DNA of 32,180 nt from Ceratorhiza oryzae-sativae (Eukaryota > Basidiomycota > Agaricomycetes > Cantharellales > Ceratobasidiaceae), in assembly GCA_030998015.1 (NCBI GenBank), contig JARWMV010000161.1, positions 1 through 32,180 on the forward strand, read 5' to 3'. Under the pieces are notes generated by a model. That model searched no databases, was not told the DNA's origin, and saw nothing but the letters and a program-made list of their open reading frames with translations. Position numbers and translations under genes: made by a program. Of this stretch, positions 3,748 to 27,743 are shown in pieces (position 1 is the stretch's first letter; every line of letters begins with the position of its first letter).

Positions 3748-4117
3748 CAAGGATTCCTATGGAATCCTTCCATGCAAGATTTATAAAATCTTGCTGGACC
3801 GAAACCATTCGGGCGGTCCCAACGCGACGGTATGATATACCTTTAATATGTTAGTCTTATAATATGTATTTATTTTAACAATGTTTTATTTAATATCTTC
3901 TCTTCGAATATTTCTTTTTTTAATTCTACTTTGTGCCACGGCATTTTTATTCTATATGGATTGTATTCAGTCAATTGGATTTGAAATGGCTATCTTTAGT
4001 GGACTATTATTTAGTTCTGCAGTTCCCATTAACCCCGCTGATGATAAACGCCACCGCTTAACTAATAAGGAAAAAGAACAATTTACTCTTTCTCAAAAAC
4101 TAACAGAAATTGCCGTT

Positions 4118-4213
4118 GACCCCCCAAACTGATGCAGCTATGCTGCATTGTTTGGGGGGGTAATGGCACTCCCAATACGCTGGCCCGTAGGGCTTGGTAA
4201 CGCATTGGGAGGC
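4118..4213 (+). mobile_element. gACCCCC-family palindromic element, 96 bp, TSD cgtt
   Basis: Two abutting hairpins (CCCCCCAAAC...GTTTGGGGGGG and CTCCCAATACG...CGCATTGGGAG) flanked by cgtt at 4114-4117 and 4214-4217. Excision with one cgtt restores EIAV-GLILGD in frame. Confidence 0.88.
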
Positions 4214-4430
4214 CGTTGGGCTTATTCTAGGCGATCTTAATATTGAGAAACAAAAAGGTGGTGTCAATGCACGATTACGGTTTGAACAAGGAGTTATTCA
4301 CAAAGAATATTTGTTCCACCTTTATTCTATATTTCAAGAATATTGTTCTCAAGTTCCAATGATACAGACACATAATCCTCTATCAAACAATAAAACAGGG
4401 AAAATACATTATAGTATAAGATTCAAAACT

Positions 4431-4603
4431 CCCGCCGGCGTTAGAGGGAATCCTAAAGATTCCCTCGTAGAAAATGACGACCGTTCGTCATTTTCAGCCG
4501 GCGGCTAAATATCGATATTATGCCGCGCACTAGCAATCGCAAACGGTTGCGATTGCTCACGTTGGTTGGTGGGACAAGTCCCACCAGCAACTAACGCGCG
4601 CGG
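4431..4603 (+). repeat. DHE copy 5, short variant
   Basis: Interrupts the endonuclease between RFKT and PCFNELY. No target duplication, and the flanking codons are one or two short compared with the sister genes. Confidence 0.92.
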
Positions 4604-4704
4604 ACCTTGTTTTAATGAGCTTTACAATCTATTTTACCTTGATGGTAAAAAAATAGTTCCATTAATTATTGCAGAATTATTAACGCCACTAGGATTAGCC
4701 TACT

Positions 4705-4823
4705 GCCCCCCAAACATGTGCAGCTACGCTGCATTGTTTGAGGGGCATCCGCCCCCCAATAAGGTAATGGCCCCCCCCAATACGTTTGTGACGCATTGGG
4801 AGGCCATTGCCTTGTTGGGGGTC
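4705..4823 (+). mobile_element. gACCCCC-family element, 119 bp, TSD tact
   Basis: Flanked by tact at 4701-4704 and 4824-4827. Three hairpins in series, the last ending GGGGGTC. Excision gives LAY-WICDDGSF in frame. Confidence 0.88.
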
Positions 4824-5046
4824 TACTGGATTTGTGATGATGGTTCTTTTTGTAGAACTTACCATGTAGTAATATTAAATACTCAAGGTTTCACAAAGGA
4901 AGAAGTTGAACTTTTAGCCAAAACTCTGAATGAGAAATGGGATCTCAAATGCACTATTAACAAAGACGGTAACGGTTACATAATACGAATTCCAAAAAAA
5001 TCATTACCTATTTTACATTCCTTATTAGGATCCACAATGCCAACTA

Positions 5047-5187
5047 CCCTCCGCGCTCTTTGATCGCCCGCAGGGCGGCCTAAGCGCGGAGGGCTCCACT
5101 AATCGATGATTTGCGAAGGCAAATCTACACCCTGCCTAGAGAACTGCGCTTTAGCGCACGTCTTGGCAGGGGTATCGATTAGCGGGG
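5047..5187 (+). repeat. repeat family B
   Basis: 141-bp copy that replaces the last codons of the cob intron 2 endonuclease. Confidence 0.9.
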
Positions 5188-5199
5188 TGATGCTTCAAA

Positions 5200-5427
5200 C
5201 CCCCGCTTAGGGTCAACCAGCATTGTATTTATATATAAATACATGCTGTTGACCCGAGGGGTTTGGTTATCGAGGCCGCGTTCGCGGCGAGGTATTGCGA
5301 GGTACCCTGGAACTTTCAGTTCCAGGGTACCTCGGAATCAGACGCCGCGCGCACGCCAGGGCCGACTTGGCTTGATTATTGACCTTAAGGTCAATATGAG
5401 CCAAGGCGTTCGCAGGCGTGCACGGGT
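5200..5427 (+). repeat. composite element family D, joined to DHE
   Basis: From CCCCCGCTTAGGGTCAAC through the TATTTATATATAAATA hairpin and a GAGGTACCCTGG hairpin to GTGCACGGGT. Its right end abuts DHE copy 6, so no target duplication can be read. Confidence 0.85.
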
Positions 5428-5601
5428 CCCGCCGGCGTTAGAGGGAATCCTAAAGATTCCCTCGTAGAAAATGACGACCGTTCGTCATTTTCAGCCGGCG
5501 GCTAAATATCGATATTATGCCGCGCACTAGCAATCGCAAACGGTTGCGATTGCTCACGTTGGTTGGTGGGACAAGTCCCACCAGCAACTAACGCGCGCGG
5601 G
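5428..5601 (+). repeat. DHE copy 6, short variant
   Basis: Placed directly on the GGGT end of a family D element. The same D-DHE junction occurs at 9401, 18763 and 23601, and an L-DHE junction at 15769. Confidence 0.92.
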
Positions 5602-5664
5602 TCTTTAAACCTGTTTTCTAGCACTCTTCGAATAAGTTGGTCTAGTAAGACCAACTAACGTTCG

Positions 5665-6033
5665 TTGGGGCCCTCGCCAGGCTCGCCTGTGGTCCCTGTT
5701 GACTGGGCAGGGAAGAGTCTAGCTTGGCTAAGCCAAGTCAAGGGTAAAGAATATTGGCTTGATAATATTCAATCTTGGTTTAAATCCCGAGCAAATGATA
5801 CTAAATCAGGCGAAAATAATATTCAGGCGGTTTTTGGACGAGGGCCATTAAAAGGGAGTATCGTAGCTTGGAAATGTGTCTTTCCTAGTGAATTTAATAT
5901 AAAATCTCGACAGTTTGGTTTTACAAATGAATTTGAATCATTACAAGCACTTAAACAGGCTATTGAATATCGAGATATTTCTTTAAAATGCTACATAGAT
6001 TCTCTGCTGAATAGCGAAAATGGCGTTAAATAA
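5665..6033 (+). CDS. unrecognised ORF at the 3' end of cob intron 2
   Basis: An open frame of up to 122 codons. The first 28 or so lie in a GC-rich repeat-like region, so the real coding part probably begins near KGKEYWLDNIQSWF (about 5731). It contains GRGPLKGSIVAWKCVFPSEF and ends near LQALKQAIEYRDISLK. The late segment, with W, RQFGF and then an amphipathic EALxxAIEYR-type helix, vaguely resembles AP2-like DNA-binding segments attached to some endonucleases, but this is a weak impression only. It has mitochondrial AT-rich codon use like the HEGs. It could be the C-terminal part of an intron-encoded protein whose start has been lost. Confidence 0.45.
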   Translation: MGPSPGSPVVPVDWAGKSLAWLSQVKGKEYWLDNIQSWFKSRANDTKSGENNIQAVFGRGPLKGSIVAWKCVFPSEFNIKSRQFGFTNEFESLQALKQAIEYRDISLKCYIDSLLNSENGVK

Positions 6034-6059
6034 AATCCGTTACAAAGTAGCTTCATACG

Positions 6060-6348
6060 GCTAGGAGTTATAGCTATGTTTGCTTCATTGTTAATACTAT
6101 TAATAATGCCAATCGTTGACACATCTAGAATTAGAGGTAACCAATTCAGACCAATAATGAAATTCTTCTTCTGGGTATTTGTGGCTGACTTCTTCATCCT
6201 AATGTGGATTGGAAGTCAACACCCAAACTCACCATTTGTGGAAGTAGGACAAGTAGCTACAGCATTGTACTTTGCTTGGTTTGTAATTATTGTTCCGGCT
6301 GTTGGTATAATCGAAAACACTCTAATGGACCTTGCTTTAGAAGGTTAA
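6060..6348 (+). CDS. cob: cob 3' exon: apocytochrome b C-terminal part
   Basis: The final exon completes a leucine codon and reads LGVIAMFASLLILLIMP, then RIRGNQFRPIMKFFFWVFVA, MWIGSQHPNSPFVEVGQVAT and VGIIENTLMDLALEG before TAA. These are the FRP and WIG landmarks and the last two or three transmembrane helices of cytochrome b. The protein therefore ends normally, and the gene is the only intact cob 3' end in the window. A diverged scrap of the same end lies at 9194-9252. No repeat touches this exon, although repeats start about 120 bases downstream. Confidence 0.95.
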
Positions 6349-6672
6349 AGTTATCAATAGTAAATGCCTTTCTGTTTCCCTCAACACGGGACTAGTAAGA
6401 TCCAGGCAGTGGTTATATTTTTGGATAAAAATTGAAAAATGAAACTTTCAACCCCTCCTTCACTCTAAGGCAAATTCATGTTTTGTCACGCGGCGGCCTA
6501 TGATCTGGCCGCGCCTAAAGGCGCGATCAGAGAGCGTTGGATCTAAGAAGTCCCCTTAACCATGGAAAATTTCTAAAAGAAGAGGTTTTTCTTTTTAACA
6601 TGGAATAAAAATGTGAAATAGTTGCACATCACGTATGTGCAACTACTTCAGCCAGCATTGTATTTATATGTA
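6349..6672. other. spacer after cob
   Basis: No gene seen. Contains the phrase aaaaatgaaactttcaaccc, which is repeated at about 9885, a partial family J hairpin (aggcgcgatcagagag, about 6510) and a TTGCACATCACGTATGTGCAA hairpin near 6622. Confidence 0.6.
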
Positions 6673-6765
6673 CCCCGCTAATCGATGATTTGCCTTCGCA
6701 AATCATCGATTAGTTGAGCCCTCCGCGCTTAGGCCGCCCTGCGGGCGATCAAAGAGCGCGGAGGG
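6673..6765 (-). repeat. repeat family B, short form
   Basis: Inverse copy lacking the middle gcgctttagcgc hairpin, so the ATCGATgatttgc arms close directly. Confidence 0.85.
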
Positions 6766-6773
6766 TTTATATA

Positions 6774-6946
6774 CCCGCGCGCGTTAGTTGCTGGTGGGAC
6801 TTGTCCCACCAACCAACGTGAGCAATCGCAACCGTTTGCGATTGCTAGTGCGCGGCATAATATCGATATTTAGCCGCCGGCTGAAAATGACGAACGGTCG
6901 TCATTTTCTACGAGGGAATCTTTAGGATTCCCTCTAACGCCGGCGG
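6774..6946 (-). repeat. DHE copy 7, short variant
   Basis: Inverse 173-bp copy in the spacer between cob and the next endonuclease remnant. Confidence 0.92.
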
Positions 6947-6989
6947 ACATGCTGCCCTTGAGGAAATAATCATGCTTGCATGATTTAAC

Positions 6990-7077
6990 TCAAGCTTCGG
7001 ATCCGTCTGTGTACGGCTTAAGCCGCACACAGACGTCTCCTCTACAAGCGTGAAGTTGTTGCACGTACGTGCAACAA
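6990..7077 (+). repeat. repeat family G
   Basis: Hairpin GTCTGTGTACGGC.../GCACACAGAC followed by a ttgcacgtacgtgcaa palindrome. Related copies at 10972, 11557, 15962 and, inverted, at 23980; a short form at 14824. Confidence 0.85.
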
Positions 7078-7466
7078 TTTAAGCTCCGCTCCCTGGATCT
7101 CTAGAGATCCAGGAGGCGGGGTATTGCGAGGTAGCCTGGACCCCCGAGGTTCCAGGCTACCTCGGAATCAAAGTCCTTACTGCCGCGGGCTATTAACCCT
7201 GGGCATAGAAATGTTGTTGCCATTTCTTAGCCTTAAATCATCTAGGCAGATATTTCTGCCGAGAAGGATTTTCCTGGTACTTAACACCGTGTTACCGTAT
7301 CTTATCCTTTACATGAAAATTGAAGCCCGTAGGGCCCAAAACCACCGTGAAGGTGTTTTTTGGAAACATCTTAAATCAAACTTACGTATTTAGCCCTAAA
7401 CAGGCTGGAACTGGAAGTTGGGGACTTATAATTTGGTTATTTTACTTCATAGCCATTCTAGCAATG

Positions 7467-7562
7467 GCCTCCCAATGCGTTACCAAGCCTGTAAGGCCAG
7501 CGTATTGGGAGAGCCATTACCCCCCCAAACAATGCAGCATAGCTGCATCAGTTTGGGGGGTC
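7467..7562 (-). mobile_element. gACCCCC-family element, 96 bp, TSD aatg
   Basis: Same two hairpins as the 4118 element, in inverse orientation, flanked by aatg at 7463-7466 and 7563-7566. Excision joins IAILAM-AIFVLYTK in frame. Confidence 0.88.
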
Positions 7563-7599
7563 AATGGCAATTTTTGTACTTTACACGAAGTCTATCATA

Positions 7600-7846
7600 C
7601 CCCCGCTTAGGGTCAACCAGCATTGTATTTATATATAAATACATGCTGTTGACCCGAGGGGTAATGGATATCGAGGCCGCGTTCGCGGCGAGGTATTGCG
7701 AGGTACCCTGGAACTTTAAGTTCCAGGGTACCTCGGAATCAGACGCCGCGCGCACGCCAGGGCCGCCTTGGCTTACATTGACCTTAAGGTCAATATGAGC
7801 CAAGCTTGCTTGGCTTAAGCCAAGGCGTTCGCAGGCGTGCACGGGT
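7600..7846 (+). mobile_element. family D composite element, 247 bp, TSD cata
   Basis: Runs from CCCCCGCTTAGGG to GTGCACGGGT and is flanked by cata at 7596-7599 and 7847-7850. It comprises at least five palindromes, including TATTTATATATAAATA and GAGGTACCCTGG. Excision joins TKSII-FDVSNH in frame. Confidence 0.88.
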
Positions 7847-8039
7847 CATATTTGACGTAAGTAATCATGTATTTTGTCTACTTTCCCTTTCTTCTATAGT
7901 GCCTATTAAATCATCTGAAGAGAAAAGAACTAGATCTGTGCTGTTAAGCAAGGAAGAAAGACCCCAAATCACTTTACCTCCCTCCGCGCTTAGATCGCGC
8001 CAGAGGCGCGGCCCACGCGCGGAGAGCCGTCTCCAAATT

Positions 8040-8118
8040 CCCGCCGGGATAATTGACGGAAGTTGATCTGGTCAGACCAACTGACTTTTTTGCAGACGTC
8101 AATTTCCCGTCGGGGCGT
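8040..8118 (+). repeat. short repeat with gataattgacgg and a ttggtct-type hairpin
   Basis: Also at about 25228-25289. The palindrome ttgatctggtcagaccaa is followed by a gacttttttgcagacgtc stretch, inside a GC block that breaks the endonuclease before its first motif. Confidence 0.7.
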
Positions 8119-8262
8119 AGGGGAGTGAATTGAAATATATTTTAATTGGTCTCTGCCTGGGCGATTTATATATTCAGAAACAATATGCAAATGCAAGATT
8201 ATTTTTTGTTCAAGGGGCTCCTAACAGAGAATATCTTGAACATTTGTATAAATTATTCAGTA

Positions 8263-8426
8263 GACCCCCAATGATTGCAATGCGCGCCACAAAACTTGTG
8301 GCGCCATTGACCCCCCAAACTGCCATTCCTTGACAATTCCTTAGGAAATGTCAAGGATTGATGTTGGTAATGGCCCCCCCCAATACGTTTGTGACGCATT
8401 GGGAGGCCATTGCCTTATTGGGGGTC
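8263..8426 (+). mobile_element. gACCCCC-family composite, 164 bp, near-TSD agta/acta
   Basis: Starts GACCCCCAATG and ends ATTGGGGGTC, flanked by agta (8259-8262) and acta (8427-8430), one mismatch. Contains the ATGCGCGCCACAA hairpin and a TTGACAATTCC hairpin. Excision gives LYKLF-(S/T)SYC, matching sister genes. Confidence 0.8.
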
Positions 8427-8513
8427 ACTAGTTATTGTAACCTGGAACCTAAAACAACTAAAACCGGGCCCCACAAAGTAACTGGTGCTGAATATAGTTC
8501 TAGCTTGAGGCGG

Positions 8514-8539
8514 AGCTGCGATCGTAGGCGGGCACGGGT
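8514..8539 (+). repeat. repeat family K
   Basis: cttgaggcggagctgcg followed by gcgggcacgggt. Copies at 27185, 28002 and 28901, and a longer form at 20559. Always inside endonuclease remnants; no target duplication seen. Confidence 0.8.
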
Positions 8540-8619
8540 CAGGTTTAACACCCTTTCCTTGCCTTGCTTTAATATATTCTTTGAATTGTTCTATATCGAT
8601 GGAAAAAAAGTAGTTCCTG

Positions 8620-8793
8620 CCCGCCGGCGTTAGAGGGAATCCTAAAGATTCCCTCGTAGAAAATGACGACCGTTCGTCATTTTCAGCCGGCGGCTAAATA
8701 TCGATATTATGCCGCGCACTAGCAATCGCAAACGGTTGCGATTGCTCACGTTGGTTGGTGGGACAAGTCCCACCAGCAACTAACGCGCGCGGG
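8620..8793 (+). repeat. DHE copy 8, short variant
   Basis: Inserted after GKKVVP. Compared with sister genes about four codons (the IIAE region) are missing at the site, so insertion was accompanied or followed by a deletion. Confidence 0.92.
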
Positions 8794-9093
8794 AATCTTT
8801 TAACTCCCTTAGGCTTAGCTTATTGGCAAAAAGTCAGGCTTTTTGCAGATGATGGGACAAGAAATAAACAGTGTCGATATGTTGAATTATGTACTCATTC
8901 CTTTACATTGAATGAAGTTGAGTTGTTAATCAATGCTTTAAACTCTAAGTGGGGCTTAAAATGCTATAAATCCAAAAGAGGTGATTCTCATACAATTAGA
9001 ATCCCTGCTTACTCGCCCCCCGTGGTGGTGAGGACCGTCGCTTCGCTCTGGCCCATCCACCACGGGAGGCGCCTGATTCCGTCGGAATCAGAG

Positions 9094-9139
9094 TCCTCAG
9101 CGCTTAGGCCGCGCCTAAAGGCGCGATCAGAGAGTTGGA
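9094..9139 (-). repeat. partial repeat family J
   Basis: Only the tcctcagcgcttaggccgcg...gagagttgga half is present, at the broken end of endonuclease copy ii. Confidence 0.75.
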
Positions 9140-9193
9140 AATAGGAATGTAACATCAATTCAATAAACCCGTTATTAACCTTCTTCCTGGGGA

Positions 9194-9252
9194 GTAACAG
9201 GTGTAATCGAAAATACTTTAATGGATCTTGCTTTAGAAAACCCAAATTCATA
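9194..9252 (+). pseudogene. diverged fragment of the cob 3' end
   Basis: In one frame it reads GVTGVIENTLMDLALENPNSY. This matches the true cob end VGIIENTLMDLALEG at protein level but differs at several third positions. There is no stop codon after LALE; the frame runs into a family D element at 9253. It could be a relic of an older cob 3' end, or a tail carried by a mobile endonuclease, as reported for atp6 in Allomyces. The stretch is too short to decide. Confidence 0.7.
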
Positions 9253-9400
9253 CCCCCGCTTAGGGTCAACCAGCATTGTATTTATATATAAATACATGCT
9301 GTTGACCCGAGGGGTAATCTTGGCTTGATTATTGACCTTAAGGTCAATATGAGCCAAGCTTGCTTGGCTTAAGCCAAGGCGTTCGCAGGCGTGCACGGGT
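9253..9400 (+). repeat. family D composite element, deleted form
   Basis: Left end as other family D copies (preceded by cata) but lacks the GAGGTACCCTGG hairpin part. The right end abuts DHE copy 9. Confidence 0.85.
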
Positions 9401-9623
9401 CCCGCCGGCGTTAGAGGGAATCCTCAGATGAGGTAGCCTTGACCATGAGTCTCATGGTCCAGGCTACCTCCCATAAAGATTCCCTCGTAGAAAATGACGA
9501 CCGTTCGTCATTTTCAGCCGGCGGCTAAATATCGATATTATGCCGCGCACTAGCAATCGCAAACGGTTGCGATTGCTCACGTTGGTTGGTGGGACAAGTC
9601 CCACCAGCAACTAACGCGCGCGG
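9401..9623 (+). repeat. DHE copy 9, long variant
   Basis: 223-bp form with the extra GGTAGCCTTGACC hairpin, joined to the GGGT end of a family D element. Confidence 0.92.
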
Positions 9624-9988
9624 AGGTAAAAACAAAATAAAGTTCTGGCATCCGCCCTGTTGGGTAGGATGCAGGTCCAGCAAGATTTTATAAATCTTGC
9701 ATGGAAGAACGCCTAATTTCCCATGGGCTTCCGGATGGAGCTTAATCTCCATCCTGGAAGACGTACATTCGAGGAGCCCGATTTACCCTCAAGCTAAATC
9801 GGATCTAAGCGAAGTCGGGTAATTTTTAATGTCAAGAACAATAGTCCAAAATTCAATTTGTGGGCAGCCGCATAGCGCGCTGCAAAAATGAAACTTTCAA
9901 CCCCTTTGTGGAAGACCTATTTGCCATCCCGCCGAGGTAGGATCGAGTTTGACGTACTCTTCCCGTCCTCGCCCCTACAAATTGATGT
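9624..9988. other. GC-rich spacer without gene
   Basis: No coding frame recognised. Holds a GATGGAGcttaatCTCCATC hairpin (about 9734), a CGATTTACCCTCAAGCTAAATCG hairpin, and the aaaaatgaaactttcaaccc phrase shared with the region after cob. Confidence 0.55.
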
Positions 9989-10211
9989 CCGCCGGCGTTA
10001 GAGGGAATCCTCAGATGAGGTAGCCTTGACCATGAGTCTCATGGTCCAGGCTACCTCCCATAAAGATTCCCTCGTAGAAAATGACGACCGTTCGTCATTT
10101 TCAGCCGGCGGCTAAATATCGATATTATGCCGCGCACTAGCAATCGCAAACGGTTGCGATTGCTCACGTTGGTTGGTGGGACAAGTCCCACCAGCAACTA
10201 ACGCGCGCGGG
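9989..10211 (+). repeat. DHE copy 10, long variant
   Basis: Part of a 462-bp block (9966-10427) repeated directly at 21409-21870. Confidence 0.92.
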
Positions 10212-10227
10212 CCTACGCAAAGCATCA

Positions 10228-12167: not shown

Positions 12168-12618
12168 ACCATACTCCACTGACTAACCCATTTTGATGGC
12201 GCGATTCTTTTGCGCTGTGGATTCCGAGGTACCCGGATTAATTAATCCGGGATACCTCGCAATCAGGAGGATTCCGACTAAAGTAGGCGTTTCGACTGTG
12301 TTTGGCTAAAGCTCTATGCAGAGCGAATTAACCTGCACTTCTGACAAGTATATAGTTCAGGAATTATCAGAATGGCCCTAGGTTTCGTCTTATGGTGAAG
12401 GGCTGTGTTTTATTTCTACTCCGTGGTTGTGCTTTAACCAGGTTCCCGTGGTTTGGTGAAATACCAATAAATCCGATTTAAGCCTATTCTGGGTGGGATT
12501 TTCCTGGACTGTATTTATAGTATAAACACGCGAAACCACAGTTCTTCATTCATAGAGGATGTGATTATATTAATCTTTAATATGATATACCTTTAAAATG
12601 TCAGTCTTATAAATATTT
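12168..12618 (+). repeat. leader of the repeated HEG unit, copy 2
   Basis: 12168-12296 matches the leader at 3075-3165 in cob intron 2, and 12580-12612 (atgatatacctttaaaatg, then cagtcttat) matches about 3830-3862. The unique middle part (12300-12560) has no gene. It contains ccgtggttgtgctttaacc and a tggtgaaataccaa hairpin. The shared flanking non-coding sequence means the endonuclease moved or was copied with its leader. Confidence 0.75.
12219..12277 (+). mobile_element. ggtaccc palindrome with 9-bp flanking repeat
   Basis: The insert carries GAGGTACCCGGATT/AATCCGGGATACCTC and lies between two GGATTCCGA copies (12219-12227 and 12269-12277). The sister leader at about 3125-3140 is uninterrupted (tggactccgactaaag), which is a filled and empty site pair. 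Confidence 0.75.
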
Positions 12619-13603
12619 TTGATTAAAACCATGAAAAGAAATAGCATGACTCAAGCAGAACGATTACAGTTCTCTTTACCTCAAAATCTGAAAGACATTC
12701 TTGTCGGGCTTATCCTCGGGGACTCTCTTCGAATATTCCCTTTTTTAATTCTAATAACAACTTTTGTATTTTATTGTGCTACGAAATTATTATTCTATAT
12801 CGATTATACTCAATTAATTGAGTCTGATATAAATTTGTATAGTCAACTATTCCTTTCTTCTTTAGTGCCTGTTAAAACCAAACGGCTAACAAAAAAGGAA
12901 AGAGAGGAATTTGTTATACCTGAAAATTTACGAGAAATCACTATAGACCCCCCAAACTGATGCAGCTACGCTGCATTGTTTGGGGGGGCTATAGCCCCCC
13001 AAAATACGCGGTCCCTACGGGCCAGCGTATTGGGGGTCTATAGGGTTATTATTAGGAGATTTGTCTGCACAGAAACAAACCATTAAAGGAAATGCTTATT
13101 TTAGATTTGAACAAGGAATAGTTCATAAAGATTACCTTTACCATTTGTACGAACTATTTCAAACTTATTGTTCAAGTGCCCCAAAAATAACTAATCGTCT
13201 TCCTGACAGTAGAACAGGAAATGTATATTCTCGTGTTTCTTTTTTCACTTATTGCTTACCCTGTTTTACCGAGCTATATAATTTATTTTACATATCAGGT
13301 AAAAAGGTAGTTCCAAGCATTATAGAGGACTTGTTAACACCTTTGTCTTTAAGCTATTGGATAGCAGATGATGGTAGCTGGAATAAACCTGGCAAATATA
13401 CCGTATTATGTACGGATTCTTTCACATTAGAAGAAGTTGAACTTTTAATTGAAGTTTTAAATAACAAATTTAACTTAAAATGCTACAAATGTAGACAAGG
13501 AACTTCTTACAGAATAATAATTCCTTCTTATTCAATTCCTGTTTTACGAAATTTGTTGGCGGCGCACATGGCTCCTATGATGCGACATAAAATAGGTTTA
13601 TAG
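12619..13603 (+). pseudogene. LAGLIDADG homing endonuclease (repeated family, copy iii), one clean insertion
   Basis: The most complete copy. Its start (MTQAERLQFSLPQNLKDILV, then GLILGD) is a truncated family N-terminus that runs straight into a second N-terminal region (SLRIFPFLILITTFVFYCAT, then VPVKTKRLTKKEREEF). GLLLGDL (first motif, about 13043) follows, then RFEQGIVHKDYLYHLYELF, PCFTELYNLFYISGKK, LLTPLSLSYW, the second motif WIADDGSW (about 13360) and the C-terminal MMRHKIGL before TAG. A single element at 12946-13038 (duplication tata) splits it. Excision restores EIT-IGLLLGD exactly. From 13061 on the frame is open to the end, so a start downstream of the element could give a protein lacking motif 1. 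Confidence 0.85.
12946..13038 (+). mobile_element. gACCCCC-family element, 93 bp, TSD tata
   Basis: Starts GACCCCCCAAACTG, ends TATTGGGGGTC, flanked by tata at 12942-12945 and 13039-13042. Two hairpins. Confidence 0.9.
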
Positions 13604-14282: not shown

Positions 14283-14364
14283 AATATAGTAATAATTTAG
14301 CCTGCCAAAATAAATACATCAGAAAATACCTCTAAGGCCGACACAGGCGTCAATTGCCACCGTC

Positions 14365-14473
14365 GACCCCCCAAACTGATGCAGCTATGCTGCATTGTTT
14401 GGGGGGGTGATGGCACTCCCAATACGCTGGCCCGTAGGGCGTGCCTTACAGGCTTGGTAACGCATTGGGAGGC
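14365..14473 (+). mobile_element. gACCCCC-family element, 109 bp, TSD cgtc
   Basis: Flanked by cgtc at 14361-14364 and 14474-14477. Same two hairpins as at 4118 with a longer second hairpin (extra gcgtgccttac). The flanking DNA is non-coding. Confidence 0.88.
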
Positions 14474-14589
14474 CGTCGTGTTGGTATAACCGCGCCTAAA
14501 TTCATACCCCAATTTATCTGTCGGCGTAGCCGCCGGACCATAACCATGGTTCAGGCCCATGATCCGCCGCCGTATGGACTCTAGGGCTG

Positions 14590-17226: not shown

Positions 17227-17904
17227 ATGATAAACAACTTTTTATTAGACGTGTTAGCCGCTGGAGCTATCTTATCAGGTATTTTAGTTATTACTTCTAA
17301 AAACCCTGTAATTGCTGTACTTTTCTTAATTTCAGCTTTCTGCAACGCCGCAGGTTACCTAATCTTACTTGGAGTGGGCTTTGTAGGTATTTCATACATA
17401 ATAGTCTACATTGGAGCCATAGCTGTGCTTTTCCTATTTGTAATTATGATGATTAATATTAATTTATCTGACATACTGGACATTGGAAGTCAGTATACAA
17501 AAAACCTACCTTTGGCTTTAACTGTAGGTTTTCTATTTACATATGAGATTTTCACAGTAATTCCCGTGAACTTCGGTAAAGTTGCTATATTAAATCTGCC
17601 TTTGGAATTATTAACTTATTTAAATGGATTACTATACGGTTCAACCGTTCCTTCAATATCTGATGTAAATATTTCCCAAAATCCGTATACTTGGGACATT
17701 TCAAGTTTTAGTTTCCTACAAGTAGAATCATTGGGCCACGGACTGTACACCTATGGAGCCCCATTGTTCATTTTATGTAGTATAATACTATTGCTTTCGA
17801 TGTTGGCTCCTATTTCAGTTGTCCATTTAAAATCAAGTAATAACCAAAAAACTTATCAAACTTCTAACCCCTCCCAAACCAGAAACTCTATTTCATTTAA
17901 TTGA
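17227..17904 (+). CDS. nad6: nad6: NADH dehydrogenase subunit 6
   Basis: A membrane subunit of respiratory complex I. The 225-residue protein starts MINNFLLDVLAAGAILSGIL and has the family-typical block GFVGISYIIVYIGAIAVLFL with the following VIMMININ. The last membrane segment is SIILLLSMLAPISVVHL. At least five hydrophobic segments are visible. The polar tail of about 25 residues (SSNNQKTYQTSNPSQTRNSI) extends beyond the usual end. The stop is TGA. The same frame continues open after it into a LAGLIDADG endonuclease. The start has an A-rich leader (nine A before ATG). No repeat lies inside the gene. Confidence 0.96.
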   Translation: MINNFLLDVLAAGAILSGILVITSKNPVIAVLFLISAFCNAAGYLILLGVGFVGISYIIVYIGAIAVLFLFVIMMININLSDILDIGSQYTKNLPLALTVGFLFTYEIFTVIPVNFGKVAILNLPLELLTYLNGLLYGSTVPSISDVNISQNPYTWDISSFSFLQVESLGHGLYTYGAPLFILCSIILLLSMLAPISVVHLKSSNNQKTYQTSNPSQTRNSISFN

Positions 17905-18935: not shown

Positions 18936-19007
18936 AAACTATCTTAACAGACCATTAGAACCCGAGACATTAAACTCTATCACAGGGATTTACGGAAAAC
19001 TACCATT

Positions 19008-19103
19008 GACCCCCCAAACTGATGCAGCTATGCTGCATTGTTTGGGGGGGTAATGGCCCTCCCAATACGTTGGCCTTACAGGCTTGGTAACGCATTGGGA
19101 GGT
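19008..19103 (+). mobile_element. gACCCCC-family element, 96 bp, TSD catt
   Basis: Flanked by catt at 19004-19007 and 19104-19107, in the nad6-linked endonuclease. Confidence 0.88.
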
Positions 19104-19245
19104 CATTGTTAATCTTACCGCCTGTTGTAAAGTATTCTAGTGTAACTATTCCAAGTCCTTGGTGGGTTATTGGGTTTATATCCGGACAATCTAAATAAAG
19201 GTTTGCCTGAAGAATTGAAAATAGCGTTCACAAATGTTGTCCCTG

Positions 19246-19560
19246 TAGACCCCCAATGATTACATTATTGGGGGGCTACTGCCCCTCAAACAATGCAGCG
19301 TAGCTGCACATGTTTGGGGGTCAGTAGAGAGACCAGAGTATGGTTTCAACTGGTCCAGTTGCATGGTGGTCCAGTTGCATGGTGGTCCAGATGGAAATAT
19401 ACCTTATCCTATGTGGATCTCCGGGTTTGTTTCTGGAAAATGATAACCTCGACTGTGGGCGGCTTTAGCCGCCCACAGGCTCCGGGCAGCGTAGCTGCAC
19501 ATGTTTGGGGGGCAGAAGTCTGCGGTCGTGTTCCTGGAACAAGACCACAGACGAGGTAGA
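19246..19560. other. decayed endonuclease end with small palindromes
   Basis: Begins after GLPEELKIAFTNVVPV with a GACCCCCAATG element of two hairpins, then a RVWFQL fragment, a ccagttgcatggtggt tandem triplication, and GCCTGTGGGCGG and GTCTGCGGTCGTG hairpins also seen before nad6. No intact frame. Confidence 0.6.
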
Positions 19561-21111: not shown

Positions 21112-21408
21112 GAAGAGGTTCCCTAGCAGCGTGTACTTGTACACGCTGACGACAGGGTTAGGGTAGGAGATCTCAGCGCTTAGGCCGCCCTTCGGGCGAT
21201 AAAAGAGCGCGTTAGAAAGAAGAAGTAAACTCCCCTGCAAAAAGCCTAGGTACAATTAATTATACCTAGGACTTTTTGCCGGTAGATCGCTAAAGCGGCC
21301 GTGGGCGGCAGGGGACTCCTAAGGATGCCCCTCAAACAATGCAGCGTAGCTGCACATGTTTGGGGGGCAGTAGGCGGGCGTTTGATTTATATCCTCTGCT
21401 AACTTCTA
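21112..21408. other. repeat-rich spacer
   Basis: Contains a CAGCGTGTACTTGTACACGCTG hairpin, a GCAAAAAGCCTAGGTA/TACCTAGGACTTTTTGC hairpin around aattaatt, and a CCCCTCAAACAATGC hairpin. Part (21107-21165) recurs at 22664-22722. No gene recognised. Confidence 0.6.
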
Positions 21409-21431
21409 TCCTCGCCCCTACAAATTGATGT

Positions 21432-21654
21432 CCGCCGGCGTTAGAGGGAATCCTCAGATGAGGTAGCCTTGACCATGAGTCTCATGGTCCAGGCTACCTC
21501 CCATAAAGATTCCCTCGTAGAAAATGACGACCGTTCGTCATTTTCAGCCGGCGGCTAAATATCGATATTATGCCGCGCACTAGCAATCGCAAACGGTTGC
21601 GATTGCTCACGTTGGTTGGTGGGACAAGTCCCACCAGCAACTAACGCGCGCGGG
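21432..21654 (+). repeat. DHE copy 19, long variant
   Basis: Inside the second copy of the 462-bp repeat. Confidence 0.92.
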
Positions 21655-21670
21655 CCTACGCAAAGCATCA

Positions 21671-21811
21671 CCCCGCTAATCGATACCCCTGCCAAGACGT
21701 GCGCTAAAGCGCAGTTCTCTAGGCAGGGTGTAGATTTGCCTTCGCAAATCATCGATTAGTTGAGCCCTCCGCGCTTAGGCCGCCCTGCGGGCGATCAAAG
21801 AGCGCGGAGGG
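21671..21811 (-). repeat. repeat family B
   Basis: Inverse 141-bp copy inside the 462-bp direct repeat. Confidence 0.9.
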
Positions 21812-22037
21812 ATTTGTAAGGAGCGTTCAGCGCTTAGGCCGCGCCTAAAGGCGCGATCAAAGAGCGTTAGAGAAATAGCTTTTTGACCCGAGCACGCCTG
21901 CGAACGCCCTGGCTTAAGCCAAGGCGGCCCTGGCGTGCGCGCGGCGTCTGATTCCGTCGGAATCAGACGCCGGCCGCGCTGGCGCCACAAGTTTTGTGGC
22001 GCGCATTGCAATCATTGGGGGTCACCGGCGACGGATT

Positions 22038-22204
22038 GTTTAAATAGACCCTTAGAAGCTGAAACATTAGAATCAGTCACATCTATCTACGGTGCGTTAC
22101 TTGAATTAATTTTAACTCCTGTAATTAAATACACAAGCATAGTTTTACCAAACCCATGGTGGATCGTAGGATTTGTGAGCTTTAATACTATTTTAGTAAA
22201 TTAA
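22038..22204 (+). pseudogene. fragment of a nad6-linked type LAGLIDADG endonuclease
   Basis: Open frame reading RPLEAETLESVTSIYG, LILTPVIKYTSIVLPNPWW and IVGFVSFNTILVN before TAA. It is a diverged copy of the NRPLEPETLNSITGIYG and IPSPWWVIGF segments at 18936-19190. The second motif has FVSF in place of the usual FVDG/E. It shows that this subfamily was also duplicated. Confidence 0.75.
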
Positions 22205-22222
22205 TGTGCGGAGAATAAAATA

Positions 22223-22330
22223 AAAGAGATGAAAACAACAATAATGCTTTTTGCTTGTAACATTGTAAATATGTTAGCCAATGTGCTACCTTCTCTTCGA
22301 ATATCTCCTCTATTATTACCCTCGAGAATC
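22223..22330 (+). pseudogene. N-terminal scrap of the repeated HEG family (copy vi)
   Basis: MKTTIMLFACNIVNMLANVL then PSLRISPLLL. The tctcttcgaatat DNA core is shared with the N-terminal regions at 3898 and 12725. It runs into a palindrome at 22320. Confidence 0.6.
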
Positions 22331-22458
22331 GATGTAGATTTGCCAGGGCAAATCATCGATTCTCGGCGAGGTATTGCGAGGTACCCTGGAACTTTAAGTT
22401 CCAGGGTACCTCGGAATCAGACGCCCGCCGCGCTGGGGACGACCGAATGCACCTTTAC

Positions 22459-22611
22459 GGTGGTTTTGGGCCCTAGTGCCCCCCAAACATGTGCAGCTAC
22501 GCTGCATTGTTTGGGGGGCATCCACCCCCCAAATGAAGCAATTACGGGGCCTCTAAAATAGCTTTGCTATTTTAAGTGGCCCCTAATTGCATCATTGGGG
22601 GTCTACGGGCA
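22459..22611 (+). repeat. repeat family N (153 bp), copy 3
   Basis: Same as 3595-3747 and 16557-16709. Confidence 0.9.
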
Positions 22612-22829
22612 TCCTCTAGCCCTCCGCGCTTAGGCCGCCCTGCGGGCGATCAAAGAGCGCGGAGGGGAAGAGGTTCCCTAGCAGCGTGTACTTGTACACG
22701 CTGACGACAGGGTTAGGGTAGGAGTTCTCTCTCTTCCCTTTCAGCTGCTCCCCAATGATTGCAATGCGCGCCACAAGACGAGCCCCCCGCTCAGGCCGCC
22801 CTTCGGGCGATCAAAGAGCGCGTTAGAAA
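22612..22829. other. repeat-rich spacer
   Basis: Part of family B (22619-22666), the CAGCGTGTACTTGTACACGCTG block shared with 21120, and an atgcgcgccacaag piece. No gene. Confidence 0.6.
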
Positions 22830-23105
22830 GAAGAAGTAACTCTTTTAGTTACTGTCTTAAATGATAAGTTCGGGTTAAAATGTTACTTAAACAAACCCGC
22901 GGCCATAAGGACTTTGATTCCGAGGTAGCCTGGAACCTCGGGGGTCCAGGCTACCTCGCAATACCTCTAGCTACTGGAGGCCGCGTATCCGCCGGCTCCC
23001 GGCGGGGTTATGTAATCATAATACCCGCTTATTCAATTTCTGTGTTACAAGAATTGTTGGCTACTGAGATGAACCCCATGATGAAATACAAAATTGGCTT
23101 AAATC
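22830..23105 (+). pseudogene. C-terminal fragments of a repeated-family LAGLIDADG gene (copy vi)
   Basis: LLVTVLNDKFGLKCYLNK (about 22840-22897) corresponds to ELLVQVLTDKFGLKST in copy iv. After an inserted GAGGTAGCCTGG palindrome the frame resumes as YVIIIPAYSISVLQELLATE and MNPMMKYKIGL (23008-23103). The MMxxKIGL ending is family-typical. It may be the displaced tail of copy v, carried away by insertions and rearrangement between 20733 and 22830. Confidence 0.75.
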
Positions 23106-23135
23106 CCCTCCTAGCCAGAACTCCATATGCGAAAA

Positions 23136-23251
23136 GCAACGGCCTCCCAATGCGTTACCAAGCCTGTAAGGCACGCCCTACGGGCCAGCGTATTGGGAGT
23201 GCCATTACCCCCCCAAACAATGCAGCATAGCTGCATCAGTTTGGGGGGTCA
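23136..23251 (-). repeat. gACCCCC-family element, imperfect flanks
   Basis: Same two hairpins as 7467-7562. The flanks aacg and aact differ in one base, so the target duplication is only suggestive. Confidence 0.75.
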
Positions 23252-23355
23252 ACTGCCATTCATCATCACATGCCCCGAAGGGCCCGAAAGGGATGATGGC
23301 CCCAGAGGGAAAAATGCTAATGTAATTTTGAGATTTGAACAAGGAATTATTCATA

Positions 23356-23600
23356 CCCCCGCTTAGGGTCAACCAGCATTGTATTTATATATAAATACAT
23401 GCTGTTGACCCGTGGGTATGGTTATCGAGGCCGCGTTCGCGGCGAGGTATTGCGAGGTACCCTGGAACTTTCAGTTCCAGGGTACCTCGGAATCAGACGC
23501 CGCGCGCACGCCAGGGCCGCCTTGGCTTACATTGACCTTAAGGTCAATATGAGCCAAGCTTGCTTGGCTTAAGCCAAGGCGTTCGCAGGCGTGCACGGGT
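23356..23600 (+). repeat. family D composite element
   Basis: Left flank cata (23352-23355); right end abuts DHE copy 20. Confidence 0.88.
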
Positions 23601-23773
23601 CCCGCCGGCGTTAGAGGGAATCCTAAAGATTCCCTCGTAGAAAATGACGACCGTTCGTCATTTTCAGCCGGCGGCTAAATATCGATATTATGCCGCGCAC
23701 TAGCAATCGCAAACGGTTGCGATTGCTCACGTTGGTTGGTGGGACAAGTCCCACCAGCAACTAACGCGCGCGG
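23601..23773 (+). repeat. DHE copy 20, short variant
   Basis: Joined to the GGGT end of family D in endonuclease copy vii. Confidence 0.92.
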
Positions 23774-23979
23774 ACCTTTTTCATTTGTATGTTTTATACA
23801 AAAATTATTGCTTGTCAGCTCCAACAACCTCTAACCGATTGCCTGACATAAGAACAGGGTGTACAATCGGGTAAGTTTTAACACTATGGCATTACCTTGT
23901 TTTAATGAACTTTATTGTCTTTTTTATTCTGATAAGAAAAAAGTAATTCCCCTACCCTATCTCGTGTCAACTACTCTGA

Positions 23980-24070
23980 AGTTGTTGCACGTACGTGCAA
24001 CAATTTCACGCTTGTAGAGGAGACGTCTGTGTGCGGCTTAAGCCGTACACAGACGGCTCCGAAGCTTGAG
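23980..24070 (-). repeat. repeat family G
   Basis: Inverse family G hairpins in the right inverted-repeat arm. Confidence 0.85.
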
Positions 24071-24089
24071 TCGAACCGTGGTTTAGCGT

Positions 24090-24262
24090 CCGCGCGCGTT
24101 AGTTGCTGGTGGGACTTGTCCCACCAACCAACGTGAGCAATCGCAACCGTTTGCGATTGCTAGTGCGCGGCATAATATCGATATTTAGCCGCCGGCTGAA
24201 AATGACGAACGGTCGTCATTTTCTACGAGGGAATCTTTAGGATTCCCTCTAACGCCGGCGGG
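24090..24262 (-). repeat. DHE copy 21, short variant
   Basis: First of an uninterrupted run of inverse DHE copies that continues to the end of the window. Confidence 0.92.
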
Positions 24263-24471
24263 ACCCGTGCACGCCTGCGAACGCCTTGGCTTGCCAAGGC
24301 GGCCCTGGCGTGCGCGCGGCTCGCCGCGAACGCGGCCTCGTTAACAATGCCCACGGGTCGTTGACCCTCCGCTTTATTACCCCTGCCAAGACGTGCGCTA
24401 AAGCGCAGTTCTCTAGGCAGGGCGGCTGAAATCTTGGGTTACACCTAAGATTTTAGCCGATAGAGCGGGGG
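24263..24471 (-). repeat. repeat family L (209 bp)
   Basis: Inverse copy between two DHE copies, in the right inverted-repeat arm. Confidence 0.9.
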
Positions 24472-24694
24472 CCCGCGCGCGTTAGTTGCTGGTGGGACTT
24501 GTCCCACCAACCAACGTGAGCAATCGCAACCGTTTGCGATTGCTAGTGCGCGGCATAATATCGATATTTAGCCGCCGGCTGAAAATGACGAACGGTCGTC
24601 ATTTTCTACGAGGGAATCTTTATGGGAGGTAGCCTGGACCATGAGACTCATGGTCAAGGCTACCTCATCTGAGGATTCCCTCTAACGCCGGCGG
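24472..24694 (-). repeat. DHE copy 22, long variant
   Basis: Inverse 223-bp form in the right inverted-repeat arm. Confidence 0.92.
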
Positions 24695-24772
24695 ATACAG
24701 GTCCAGCAAGATTTTATAAATCTTGCATGGAAGCAAACCACGGAACGATGTTGACCGAGATAGAGGCCAGAC

Positions 24773-25600
24773 TAATTTTAGATGAGCTCTACATTTATCT
24801 TCACGCACGGCCTATGCATTTTTCGTTCATTTTTCTTACAGACCATCACAGATGTTCAGCAGGAAAAACGGATGGAAATCACCTACTGCCTGGCCTTTTT
24901 ATCTTTTTACCATCAGAGATATCCAGAATGTAAATTATCTTTATCCGTGATGAGACTATTTCTAATAAATTGAATCTACCAAAGGCTACCGGGTTGGAGG
25001 TTATTCTCCATTATGGGGCGCGGAGTTACGGGCAAAGGGGGCCATTTGGTGGTGATTCCACCACCAAGCGCGGTAGCACAGTCAGCCTGCTGACTGGGAA
25101 ATTAGGGATTATGAATAAAGGCGGGTATTGGGTGAATGATCTTATATCTGTTAAATAGAGCCGCGATCGATCGAACGTGAGCCTTCCCTTTCCAACCCTA
25201 TTTAGAGTACACTGGGCCCAGTCGAAGGATAATTGACGGAAGTTGATCTGGTCAGACCAACTGACTTTTTTGCAGACGTCAATTTCCGAAGGCGGGGAGC
25301 TGGGCAATACCGCGTAACTCCATCATGATCAAAATAATGCATGAGAGCAGCTTTGATCTATCCCGCCTGGGAATCAGGTGAGGCCCTACCCCCTATACCC
25401 CAACCGTGACCCAACCACGATAAGAATACTTATCGTAGACCCCCAACAAGGCAATGGCCTCCCAATGCGTTACCAAGCCTGTAAGGCACGCCCTACGGGC
25501 CAACGTATTGGGGGGGGGGGGCCATTACCTTATTGGGGGGCGTATGCCCCTCAAACAATGCAGCGTAGCTGCACATGTTTGGGGGGCAGGAGTTGGGCAC
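24773..25600. other. spacer without recognised gene
   Basis: AT-rich then mixed. Open frames at 24727-25158 show no family I know. A GGTGGTGATTCCACCACC hairpin at about 25050 with the phrase ccaccaccaagc recurs near 26607. Repeats at about 25228-25289, 25435-25535 and 25548-25590. No RNA gene found. Confidence 0.5.
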
Positions 25601-25655
25601 CGCTCTTTGATCGCGCCTTTAGGCGCGGCCTAAGCGCTGAACGCTCCTTACAAAT

Positions 25656-25796
25656 CCCTCCGCGCTCTTTGATCGCCCGCAGGGCGGCCTAAGCGCGGAG
25701 GGCTCAACTAATCGATGATTTGCGAAGGCAAATCTACACCCTGCCTAGAGAACTGCGCTTTAGCGCACGTCTTGGCAGGGGTATCGATTAGCGGGG
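25656..25796 (+). repeat. repeat family B
   Basis: 141-bp copy inside the inverted block. Confidence 0.9.
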
Positions 25797-25812
25797 TGAT
25801 GCTTTGCGTAGG

Positions 25813-25985
25813 CCCGCGCGCGTTAGTTGCTGGTGGGACTTGTCCCACCAACCAACGTGAGCAATCGCAACCGTTTGCGATTGCTAGTGCGCGGCATAAT
25901 ATCGATATTTAGCCGCCGGCTGAAAATGACGAACGGTCGTCATTTTCTACGAGGGAATCTTTAGGATTCCCTCTAACGCCGGCGG
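25813..25985 (-). repeat. DHE copy 23, short variant
   Basis: Occupies the position of the long DHE in the 462-bp repeats. Confidence 0.92.
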
Positions 25986-26129
25986 ACATCAATTTGTGGG
26001 GGCGAGGACGGGAAGAGGCTACGGGTCAAGTACAATATTACGCAGGCAGGGACTATGCCGCCTGTGTCGGGCTAACTTGACATAGGGATGGGGCGGTGGT
26101 GAAAAGGAAAGTATAAAGTTCAAACATAA

Positions 26130-26202
26130 GGGTTGTTAGCTTAATAGGTAAAGCCCCTAAGCGTCACTTAGGATTATATCGGTTCGATTCCGATAGGACC
26201 CG
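26130..26202 (+). tRNA. trnD: tRNA-Asp(GUC)
   Basis: Cloverleaf with D stem GCTT/AAGC, anticodon stem CCTAA/TTAGG, loop GCGTCAC (anticodon GTC) and T arm ATCGG-TTCGATT-CCGAT. The acceptor GGGTTGT pairs with AGGACCC except for a G-G mismatch at pair 6-67. Position 33, usually U, is C. These oddities may be natural for this tRNA or show relaxed constraint. It sits 122 bases beyond a repeat block. Confidence 0.88.
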
Positions 26203-26914
26203 ATGGGATTGTCAAGCCCCTAAATTTAGACACAGACTCCGATAAGACCAGGAATCCCGGAAAACATGTTTTCCGGGATTCAGCGCGCCTTATTTCCCCC
26301 CCCCTGAATACTAAGGCGGGGCGGGGTTGGGCAGCACCCATTGCCGTCCTGCCACCGCGCTTAGGCCGCCCTTCGGGCGATCAAAGAGCGCGGTGGGGCA
26401 AGATTATGGCAACTACCCCGCCGCCGTATGGACTTTGAGGAGCCGGCCCAGCTAGGGGACTTATCGTGGTTGGGAGGAGTCCTGAGGGACCCATCAGGAC
26501 GTTGCCGAACGGCTAATTTCCCCAGGGTTATCCAATACTGACTATGTCAGTACTGTGGAGGGAGAGATGAAGATTAATCTCCATCCTGGAAGACTTACTG
26601 CGCTTGGAGATTCCACCACCAAGCACGGTAGCGTAGGTCCCTAAGTTAAATTTGGGTTATAGGAGTTGTGAATACCAAACTCCCTTCGGTAGCAACCTCT
26701 ACTACGTCGTTCCCATCAAAAGGAACGAGGTTTTATTACTTTTTTTTGTTCATGTCTGGAAACCCCAAAATAAAGCGTTAACTAGCATGCGGCCTCATGC
26801 TTCAGGCTAGGGCAGCCTCATCTTTCGTGTGGTTGACAATGATTCGATCTTAACTATATCGGGTCAGAGTGCAATTTAGGACGCACAAAAAGAATAAAAT
26901 AAAAAATATAAATT
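26203..26914. other. spacer between tRNA-Asp and nad4L
   Basis: Contains a perfect 28-base palindrome at 26253-26280 (centre AAACATGTTT), a partial B/J-type hairpin at about 26356-26394, and a GATTAATCTCCATCCTGGAAGAC stretch shared with about 9740-9765. The last 40 bases before nad4L are very AT-rich. No further RNA gene found. Confidence 0.55.
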
Positions 26915-27152
26915 ATGAATCTTTCAATAATACTGTTTTTAATTGGAATTTTAGGATTTATATTGAATAGAAAAAATATTATCCTATTAATCATTTCCAT
27001 CGAGATAATGTTACTAGCTGTAACATTACTTGTTTTAATTAGTTCTTTTGGTTTCGATGATAACATCGGTCAAACATTCGGTGTATATATTATAGCAATA
27101 GCTGGAGCAGAGTCAGTTATAGGATTGAGTATTTTAGTAGCATATTATCGAT
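26915..27152 (+). CDS. nad4L: nad4L exon 1: NADH dehydrogenase subunit 4L
   Basis: A small membrane subunit of complex I. MNLSIILFLIGILGFILNRK, ISIEIMLLAVTLLVLISSF, DDNIGQTFGVYIIAIAGAES and VIGLSILVAYYR cover nearly all of the usual length and all three helices. The expected continuation in fungi is YRLRGTISLR. The unspliced reading would instead give YRLSKLTLFII before TAA (27179-27181). Cutting after the T at 27152 and joining to 28865 or to 31524 restores the family-typical ending (see those entries). I therefore treat 27153 as the start of an intron. If it is not spliced, an 88-residue variant protein is made. Confidence 0.9.
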
Positions 27153-27184
27153 TAAGCAAATTAACTTTATTTATAATTTAATGA

Positions 27185-27220
27185 CTTGAGGCGGAGCTGC
27201 GATCGTAGGCGGGCACGGGT
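27185..27220 (+). repeat. repeat family K
   Basis: Just after the TAATG that follows the unspliced nad4L reading. Confidence 0.8.
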
Positions 27221-27627
27221 GAGAAACACAACAACCTTACTGAAATCATGGGGAAATGTTAGCAATAACGACCGAATTAATTCTTATATTCACCCTAAAA
27301 GCTTAACAATATCCACAGGGCCTAAGAACCTGGAATCAATTAAACCTAATAACGAGTGCAAGGCATTAGTTCCGTACTCCGAAGGGTTAGGTTCTACTAT
27401 AGGTATGCGACTATCTACTTTCGCTTTATCACAATTTAAACTGACAGCTGACCCCCAATGATTGCAATGCGCGCCACAAAACTTGTGGCGCCATTGACCC
27501 CAAACAAATGCAGCTACGCTGCATTGTTTGGGGGGTCAATGGTAATGAGACGAGATGGGACATTTTATTGTTACCTAACTACCAGAAGTTTACCTTGTCT
27601 TAACGAACTGTATGAAGCCTTCACAGT

Positions 27628-27708
27628 TGACCCCCAATGCTTTACAGCATGTTGGGGGGTAATTGCCCCCCCAAACAATGCAGCGTAGCTGCATATGTTT
27701 GGGAGGGC
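27628..27708 (+). mobile_element. gACCCCC-family element, 81 bp, TSD agtt
   Basis: Two hairpins (GACCCCCAATGC...GTTGGGGGG and CCCCCCAAACAATG...GTTTGGGAGGG) flanked by agtt at 27624-27627 and 27709-27712. Excision joins AFT-VDGKKC in frame. Confidence 0.88.
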
Positions 27709-27743
27709 AGTTGATGGTAAAAAATGTGTAACAATGTCTATTG

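Follow-up and report, generated by a model that had tools for sequence, protein, structure and literature searches.

Yeast mitochondrial DNA (mtDNA) carries short, dispersed, GC-rich palindromes known as GC clusters (GC42 and its relatives), which merge with one another and have direct repeats of AG or ACT at their ends, according to the parts of PMC4478555 that deal with them; for the spread of such mitochondrial clusters, the same parts discuss both cut-and-paste and RNA-mediated copying and leave the matter unsettled. The double-hairpin elements of Allomyces mtDNA are said, in the relevant portion of PMC2800124, to lack flanking duplications, and hence an RNA route was suggested for them, and the Fusarium mtDNA palindromes of the pertinent section of PMC7218506 are runs of A and T. 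Here we describe two-hairpin palindromic insertions in a 32,180-nucleotide stretch of DNA from Ceratorhiza oryzae-sativae (contig JARWMV010000161.1 of assembly GCA_030998015.1; hereafter the window) and in related contigs. Each unit is laid out as flank, hairpin 1, spacer, hairpin 2, flank, and the six-base spacer is in most loci the reverse complement of the flanking hexamer, G·T pairs allowed. We assign a rough probability of 0.45 to the reading that these mtDNA insertions, with spacers mostly the reverse complement of the adjoining site, spread by annealing of a target hexamer and primed copying of the unit.

The units resemble yeast GC clusters in being short, dispersed GC-rich palindromes of fungal mtDNA with direct repeats at their ends, and differ in that the repeat is a variable hexamer (CTATTG, CAATTG, CCATTG) tied to the spacer rather than AG or ACT, a comparison of descriptions, not of sequences, drawn from the sections cited above. 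With the Allomyces elements, as far as the cited portion describes them, they share two adjacent hairpins per unit (41 composites here), dispersal and presumed mobility; unlike those elements, they are flanked by hexamer repeats, identical at 18 of 35 loci. The bacterial IS200/IS605 and REP elements are hairpins with a short internal guide that pairs with the cleavage or target site, and they use a Y1 transposase and are not known to produce a target duplication. The present units are like them in being hairpin elements with a short internal sequence that pairs with the site, and differ in that nothing here shows a transposase. The Byp elements of Magnusiomyces, which Lang et al. reportedly described in 2014, are said to sit in essential mitochondrial genes and to be skipped in translation, whereas the four essential gene pieces of the window (the cob 3' part, nad6, nad4L and the nad5 5' part) stay open reading frames. 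What is shared with the Byp elements, which PMC4478555 also mentions, is the presence of hairpins within mitochondrial coding sequence and of putative duplications.

Counts refer to the fetched DNA, reduced to 177 kb of non-redundant mtDNA, which is less than the whole mitochondrial genome. Hairpin-1 cores occur 81 times in this set as dispersed GC-rich palindromes, as in the yeast mitochondrial GC clusters; within the window the core pattern was found 12 times (0 in 100 shuffles), and a somewhat different core pattern gave 1699 occurrences in the redundant assembly. Two copies, the elements at 4119-4212 and 12947-13037, fold far below shuffled sequences (z = -7.3 and -9.2, respectively). Using a fixed pattern blind to the flanks, we collected 41 two-hairpin composites, oriented by convention with the TGCAGC hairpin first. 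Six composites, all with CAT-type spacers, were dropped because their upstream or downstream flank (for some, only the inner downstream sequence) was common to another composite, which left 35 loci.

Full pairing of the spacer, by Watson-Crick and G·T pairs, was found with the left flank at 24/35 loci and with the right flank at 26/35, against shuffled means of 7.4 and 9.9 (P = 5e-5 for each, the floor of the test); before the shared-flank composites were dropped the counts were 24/41 and 26/41. For a core of 27 loci with spacers starting TAA, TGA, CAA or CTA (prefixes picked after the table had been seen), full pairing rose to 21/27 on the left and 26/27 on the right (again P = 5e-5, the floor), with 0.11 of 27 expected from random genome hexamers and 0.39 from C....G hexamers. 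Among the eight loci outside the core, three with spacer CAGTAG pair fully with the left flank, and one with CAGCAG is one pair short. Written as left flank/spacer/right flank, the triples include CTATTG/CAATAG/CTATTG at five loci, CAATTG/CAATTG/CAATTG at three (with TAATTG at a fourth), CCTTTG/TAAAGG/CCTTTG at two and CTATAG three times over at one; CCATTG or CCGTTG stands with TAATGG, and CTACTG with CAGTAG. The pairs CTATTG/CAATAG, CCTTTG/TAAAGG, CCATTG/TAATGG and CTACTG/CAGTAG are not self-complementary. Among the 11 loci whose spacer is TAATGG, base 3 of the target, which lies opposite T, is A five times, G six times and a pyrimidine never.

Covariation was assessed across the 16 distinct core triples. 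Between left flank and spacer 92.7% of cells are paired and 8 are doubly changed; between spacer and right flank the values are 97.9% and 10. For cells paired, doubly changed cells and the covariation score, none of 500 shuffles reached as high a value in either helix, and every slid control scored lower. Coarser measures (pairs changed on both sides, further pair types) were weaker, being matched by 23 and 3 and by 21 and 12 of 500 shuffles. The hexamers are not arbitrary: flank, spacer and flank are coupled across subfamilies.

The two flanks also match one another. Identical left and right hexamers were counted at 18/41 composites and at 18/35 loci (shuffled means 2.90 and 2.86; P = 5e-5 for both, the floor), and in 20,000 shuffles the maximum was 10 such loci for either set; the matching of flanks beyond chance, on which an earlier sequence-only reading of the window had leaned, is borne out. 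Within a subfamily, different loci share a hexamer (five loci have CTATTG, four CAATTG and two CCTTTG), and 26/27 core left flanks have C....G ends. An A precedes the left hexamer in 19/27 core loci (P = 6e-6, one of 30 positions tried), possibly a further target preference.

Empty sites were sought among paralogues with a register test, in which the flanks of the 41 composites were joined, 0-19 bases were removed on the right side, and ungapped translated similarity to other loci was scored. Scores of at least 45 bits were reached by 22/41 composites. A site was called decisive when its best score lay at least 10 bits above the next, a margin chosen after the scores had been seen; 9/12 decisive sites peak at exactly six bases removed, and 10/13 once the element at 4706 is counted with its outer boundary. 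These sites are 4119, 12947, 19009 and 27707 in the window and L022:8022, L030:3176, L034:293, L041:3132 and L043:284 elsewhere, plus 4706. Paralogues of endonuclease genes are the source of the empty sites, and the net gain is the element plus six bases; from the alignments, and from Pfam run on a few, all ten look like endonuclease coding sequence. The clearest case is the empty target hexamer CCTTTG at 13340..13345 (plus strand) in an uninterrupted LAGLIDADG_2 paralogue; the same site is occupied in locus L041 (3126-3244), where an element with spacer TAAAGG lies between two CCTTTG copies (126 vs 68 bits).

At the seven sites listed in the sequence-only reading, at least two GC-rich hairpins do lie between direct repeats, as it had claimed. 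The repeat it gave as a perfect 4-mer is a hexamer, usually C-N4-G, identical in 6/6 bases at six of the seven and in 5/6 at 19003-19108. Its statement that each repeat has a different sequence is slightly inaccurate, the aatg at 7467 and the catt at 19008 being the same site on opposite strands. Restoration of a reading frame by deletion of the element with one repeat copy was upheld at the five coding sites 4119, 4706, 12947, 19009 and 27707, where paralogue similarity peaks with the element and one hexamer removed. The element at 4119-4212 (unit 4113..4218, plus strand) lies inside a LAGLIDADG_2 gene between CCGTTG (4113-4118) and CCGTTG (4213-4218), with spacer TAATGG at 4161-4166, and peaks at six bases with 71 bits vs 51 for the next best. 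The composite at 4706-4822 (unit 4700..4828, plus strand), in which a second hairpin is nested, is flanked by CTACTG (4700-4705 and 4823-4828) and has a spacer, CATCCG, without pairing to its flank; its first register test failed because the search pattern stopped at the inner hairpin, and with the outer boundary set by hand the peak is at six bases (102 vs 66 bits). The element at 12947-13037 (unit 12941..13043, plus strand), also inside a LAGLIDADG_2 gene, has CTATAG in three places, its two flanks and its spacer (12989-12994), and peaks at six bases with 83 vs 57 bits. At 19009-19102 (unit 19003..19108, plus strand; CCATTG/TCATTG, spacer TAATGG at 19051-19056), the joined flanks align ungapped to another open frame near window position 22090 (85 vs 56 bits). 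The element at 27630-27707 (unit 27624..27713, minus strand) has flanks CAACTG/CAACTG, which are CAGTTG on the plus strand, and spacer CAATTA at 27660-27665, and its empty paralogue is in the same window near 29890 (84 vs 66 bits).

Two further listed elements complete the seven: 7468-7561 (unit 7462..7567, minus strand; CAATGG/CAATGG on the plus strand, CCATTG in element orientation; spacer at 7514-7519), which has no decisive empty paralogue and scores best elsewhere by 2 bits, and 14366-14472 (unit 14360..14478, plus strand; CCGTCG/CCGTCG, spacer TGATGG at 14408-14413). Other elements of the window are missing from that list, and two examples follow. One is at 23143-23249 (unit 23137..23255, minus strand), with left flank CAGTTG (23250-23255 on the minus strand), right flank CCGTTG and spacer TAATGG at 23202-23207, and scores 56 bits at eight bases vs 55 at six. 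The other, of the CTACTG subfamily, is at 19249-19321 (unit 19243..19327, minus strand) and has left flank CTACTG, the exact reverse complement CAGTAG as spacer, and right flank CTACAG. Outside the window, an element with CTATTG flanks (L035:9771-9860) stands where a LAGLIDADG_1 frame (L035:8929-9903, minus strand) begins; it adds no stop to this frame, which is otherwise open.

The flanks differ in 9/27 core loci, and in these full pairing with the spacer is seen for the right flank in 9/9 and for the left in 4/9. Bases 4-6 of the two hexamers agree in 27/27 core loci and bases 1-3 in 18/27 (Fisher P = 0.0018), the differences being confined to bases 1-3. Three loci with the same hairpin-2 loop all have TCATTG on the right, with CCATTG, CAGTTG and CCATTG on the left. 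The left hexamer is probably the target's own, the right one, as the spacer's pairing partner, probably travels with the element, and the 3' half of the hexamer may be needed for priming. In the annealing and primed-copying model, the address hexamer at the end of a target strand would pair with an existing copy or with a transcript of one. Extension of this strand would then run through hairpin 1, the spacer and hairpin 2 as far as the right hexamer that the element itself carries, where the strand would rejoin the target. Elements would multiply by copy-and-paste and gain a six-base repeat without any staggered cut, the direct repeat being mainly an address match rather than a staggered-cut duplication. 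The spacer may itself bind the target, or it may serve as a stem partner through which the address is conserved. A further-reaching version, in which a mobile hairpin unit programs its own insertion site, the spacer being a guide that forms Watson-Crick and G·T pairs with the target and compensatory change of spacer and terminal hexamer retargeting a subfamily, is tentative and, in our judgement, somewhat unlikely.

Several observations weigh against the annealing model. Four non-core loci (spacers CATCCG or CATCCA) lack flank pairing, and the six dropped rows are of the CAT type as well. At least one left flank:spacer pair is not Watson-Crick at 23/35 loci, mostly through G·T; the departures are 25 G:T and 3 T:G vs 8 others, with 17 of the 25 G:T cells at one position, base 6, shared by descent. 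Because CAATTG and CTATAG are both self-complementary, an inverted and a direct copy are indistinguishable at those loci, and spacer and right flank are inherited within subfamilies, so that the shuffles overstate independence. Three of the 13 decisive sites (window 3615, window 25586 and L041:2695), all with CAT-starting spacers, peak elsewhere than at six bases. The asymmetry of right and left flanks is thin (P = 0.03 in the pairing swap test), association of the flanks with internal sequence was not significant in swap tests (P = 0.28 and 0.29), and the letters of paralogues do not settle the native hexamer at mismatched sites. Among redundant contigs, no presence/absence difference was found: 103 alignments, each 1 kb or longer and 316 kb in total, contained no indel of at least 8 bases (fetched contigs only). 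Movement was not seen, since no copy was present in one of the compared redundant contigs and absent from another. No reverse transcriptase motif was found in the 17 open reading frames of at least 220 amino acids in the fetched mtDNA. Two Pfam searches of the assembly returned nothing for a group II intron maturase or a plasmid-type DNA polymerase, a result that does not show absence because the control genomes also gave no signal; transposases were not searched for.

The strongest rival, into which the annealing model grades, is template switching during replication or repair at a six-base microhomology, whereby a broken or stalled strand with the hexamer at its end switches to an existing copy as template and, once this has been copied, returns at the element's right hexamer; it calls for no dedicated machinery and gives the spacer no role, its complementarity being only the stem of an inherited hairpin. 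This explanation, which we consider unlikely, would account for the recurrence of hexamers with subfamilies, the strict matching at the hexamer 3' half and the element-borne right flank, and it makes unnecessary an enzyme of which the limited searches found none, but it leaves unexplained why the repeat is of about six bases with C....G ends (26/27 core left flanks), why A precedes the left hexamer (19/27), and why spacer and right flank change jointly in new subfamilies. Less probable again is an ordinary miniature transposon, whose enzyme (a transposase or an endonuclease, perhaps encoded in the nucleus) would cut C-N4-G sites with a six-base stagger, so that repair duplicates the target, the spacer being made complementary to the flank later by quasi-palindrome correction. 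The six-base duplication at empty sites, the identical flanks at 18/35 loci and the C....G and preceding-A preference all agree with it, as does the occurrence of two hairpin-2 sequences each with TAATGG at CCATTG and with TAAAGG at CCTTTG, which target rewriting predicts. Duplication, however, predicts equal flanks with random decay, and the core differences fall only in bases 1-3 while the right flank stays paired; a six-base cut by itself leaves the spacer unexplained; correction would not favour the G:T and T:G departures (25 and 3, vs 8 others), although a single shared position accounts for 17 of the 25 G:T cells; and in the two copies folded an A opposite G beside the flank helix persists uncorrected. 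A miniature inverted-repeat transposon would have terminal inverted repeats and a duplication drawn from the target alone; here six-base repeats are present, but they are tied to the spacer and unequal in 9/27 core loci.

A history without insertion, in which paralogues lost their hairpins or hairpins grew in place by slippage or gene conversion, agrees with the lack of presence/absence polymorphism in the redundant contigs compared. It has against it the near identity of elements at many sites whose flanks are unrelated and the exact six-base register at ten sites, would demand precise loss of the element and one hexamer in many paralogues, and is in our view highly improbable. The sequence-only reading had proposed insertion with target duplication, more like a miniature transposon; doubling of a single-copy site stands, on the empty paralogues and the flank matching, and plain target-site duplication is not the best account because the hexamer is coupled to the spacer of the element itself and recurs within a subfamily. 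Two candidates were set aside. A plain four-base duplication with unrelated targets was rejected, as the same flanks reappear within subfamilies and show pairing with the spacer. Two hairpins independently capping the ends of a break, which would also yield the order flank, hairpin, complement, hairpin, flank, were discounted on the co-occurrence of hairpin 1 and hairpin 2 in 41 composites, a weak rejection because the search pattern itself requires that order.

The window, which is contig C161 in an assembly of 48.8 Mb, is very likely basidiomycete mtDNA, an assignment made because its nad6 protein matches mitochondrial nad6, with Rhizoctonia as the nearest organism-named source (70-71% identity, among the 120 matches listed); its near relatives we take to be the order Cantharellales. 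It holds the cob 3' part at 6076-6348, nad6 at 17227-17904, nad4L at 26915-27181 and the nad5 5' part from 31552, together with two tRNAs and several LAGLIDADG genes in pieces. Two checked loci have 17 and 26 full-length copies in the assembly, often in mirror-image contigs. Mitochondrial contigs of G000 (C67, C77, C85, C86, C141 and others) are head-to-head mirror images and highly redundant, either an assembly artefact or real inverted molecules. Matches to cox1 exons are scattered over about 30 kb at G000:C85:33983-63571, and the gene looks heavily intron-split from these matches. A VAR1 (rps3-like) domain and the beginning of a LAGLIDADG_1 domain are joined in one open frame at L043:453-1367.

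Other palindromes accompany the two-hairpin family. A separate family (GGTACCCGG...CCGGGATACC) has an empty site at window 3126-3134 and an occupied one at 12219-12277, with an apparent nine-base repeat (GGATTCCGA) relative to the paralogous stretch. Another family, of about 170 bases (CCGCCGGCG...GCGCGCGG), is very abundant, with one copy at about 4432-4603 of the window and many others; in some copies a 50-base palindrome (GAGGTAGCC...GGCTACCTC) is found, always at the same internal position. A single-hairpin relative (CCAAAAACACCCC...GGGGTGGTTTTGG) at L030:812 (minus strand), compared with the empty paralogue at L026:632, shows a four-base CCAA repeat and ends in TTGG, the reverse complement of that repeat; most other single-hairpin copies were, by eye, without a clear repeat. 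The exact core pattern of the two-hairpin family was not found in collections of viral and prokaryotic contigs, as expected of a fungal family; no fungal collection was searched.

Among the literature records searched, including the parts of PMC4478555, PMC2800124 and PMC7218506 referred to above, we saw no description of a spacer complementary to the insertion site. We place the family among the mobile mitochondrial palindromes, and the rule linking spacer and flank is what is new. Base pairing of target, spacer and flank supplies a concrete, testable rule, by which the spacer predicts the landing sites of new copies; if the guide reading is true, this mobile element of some 100 bases would carry its own address.

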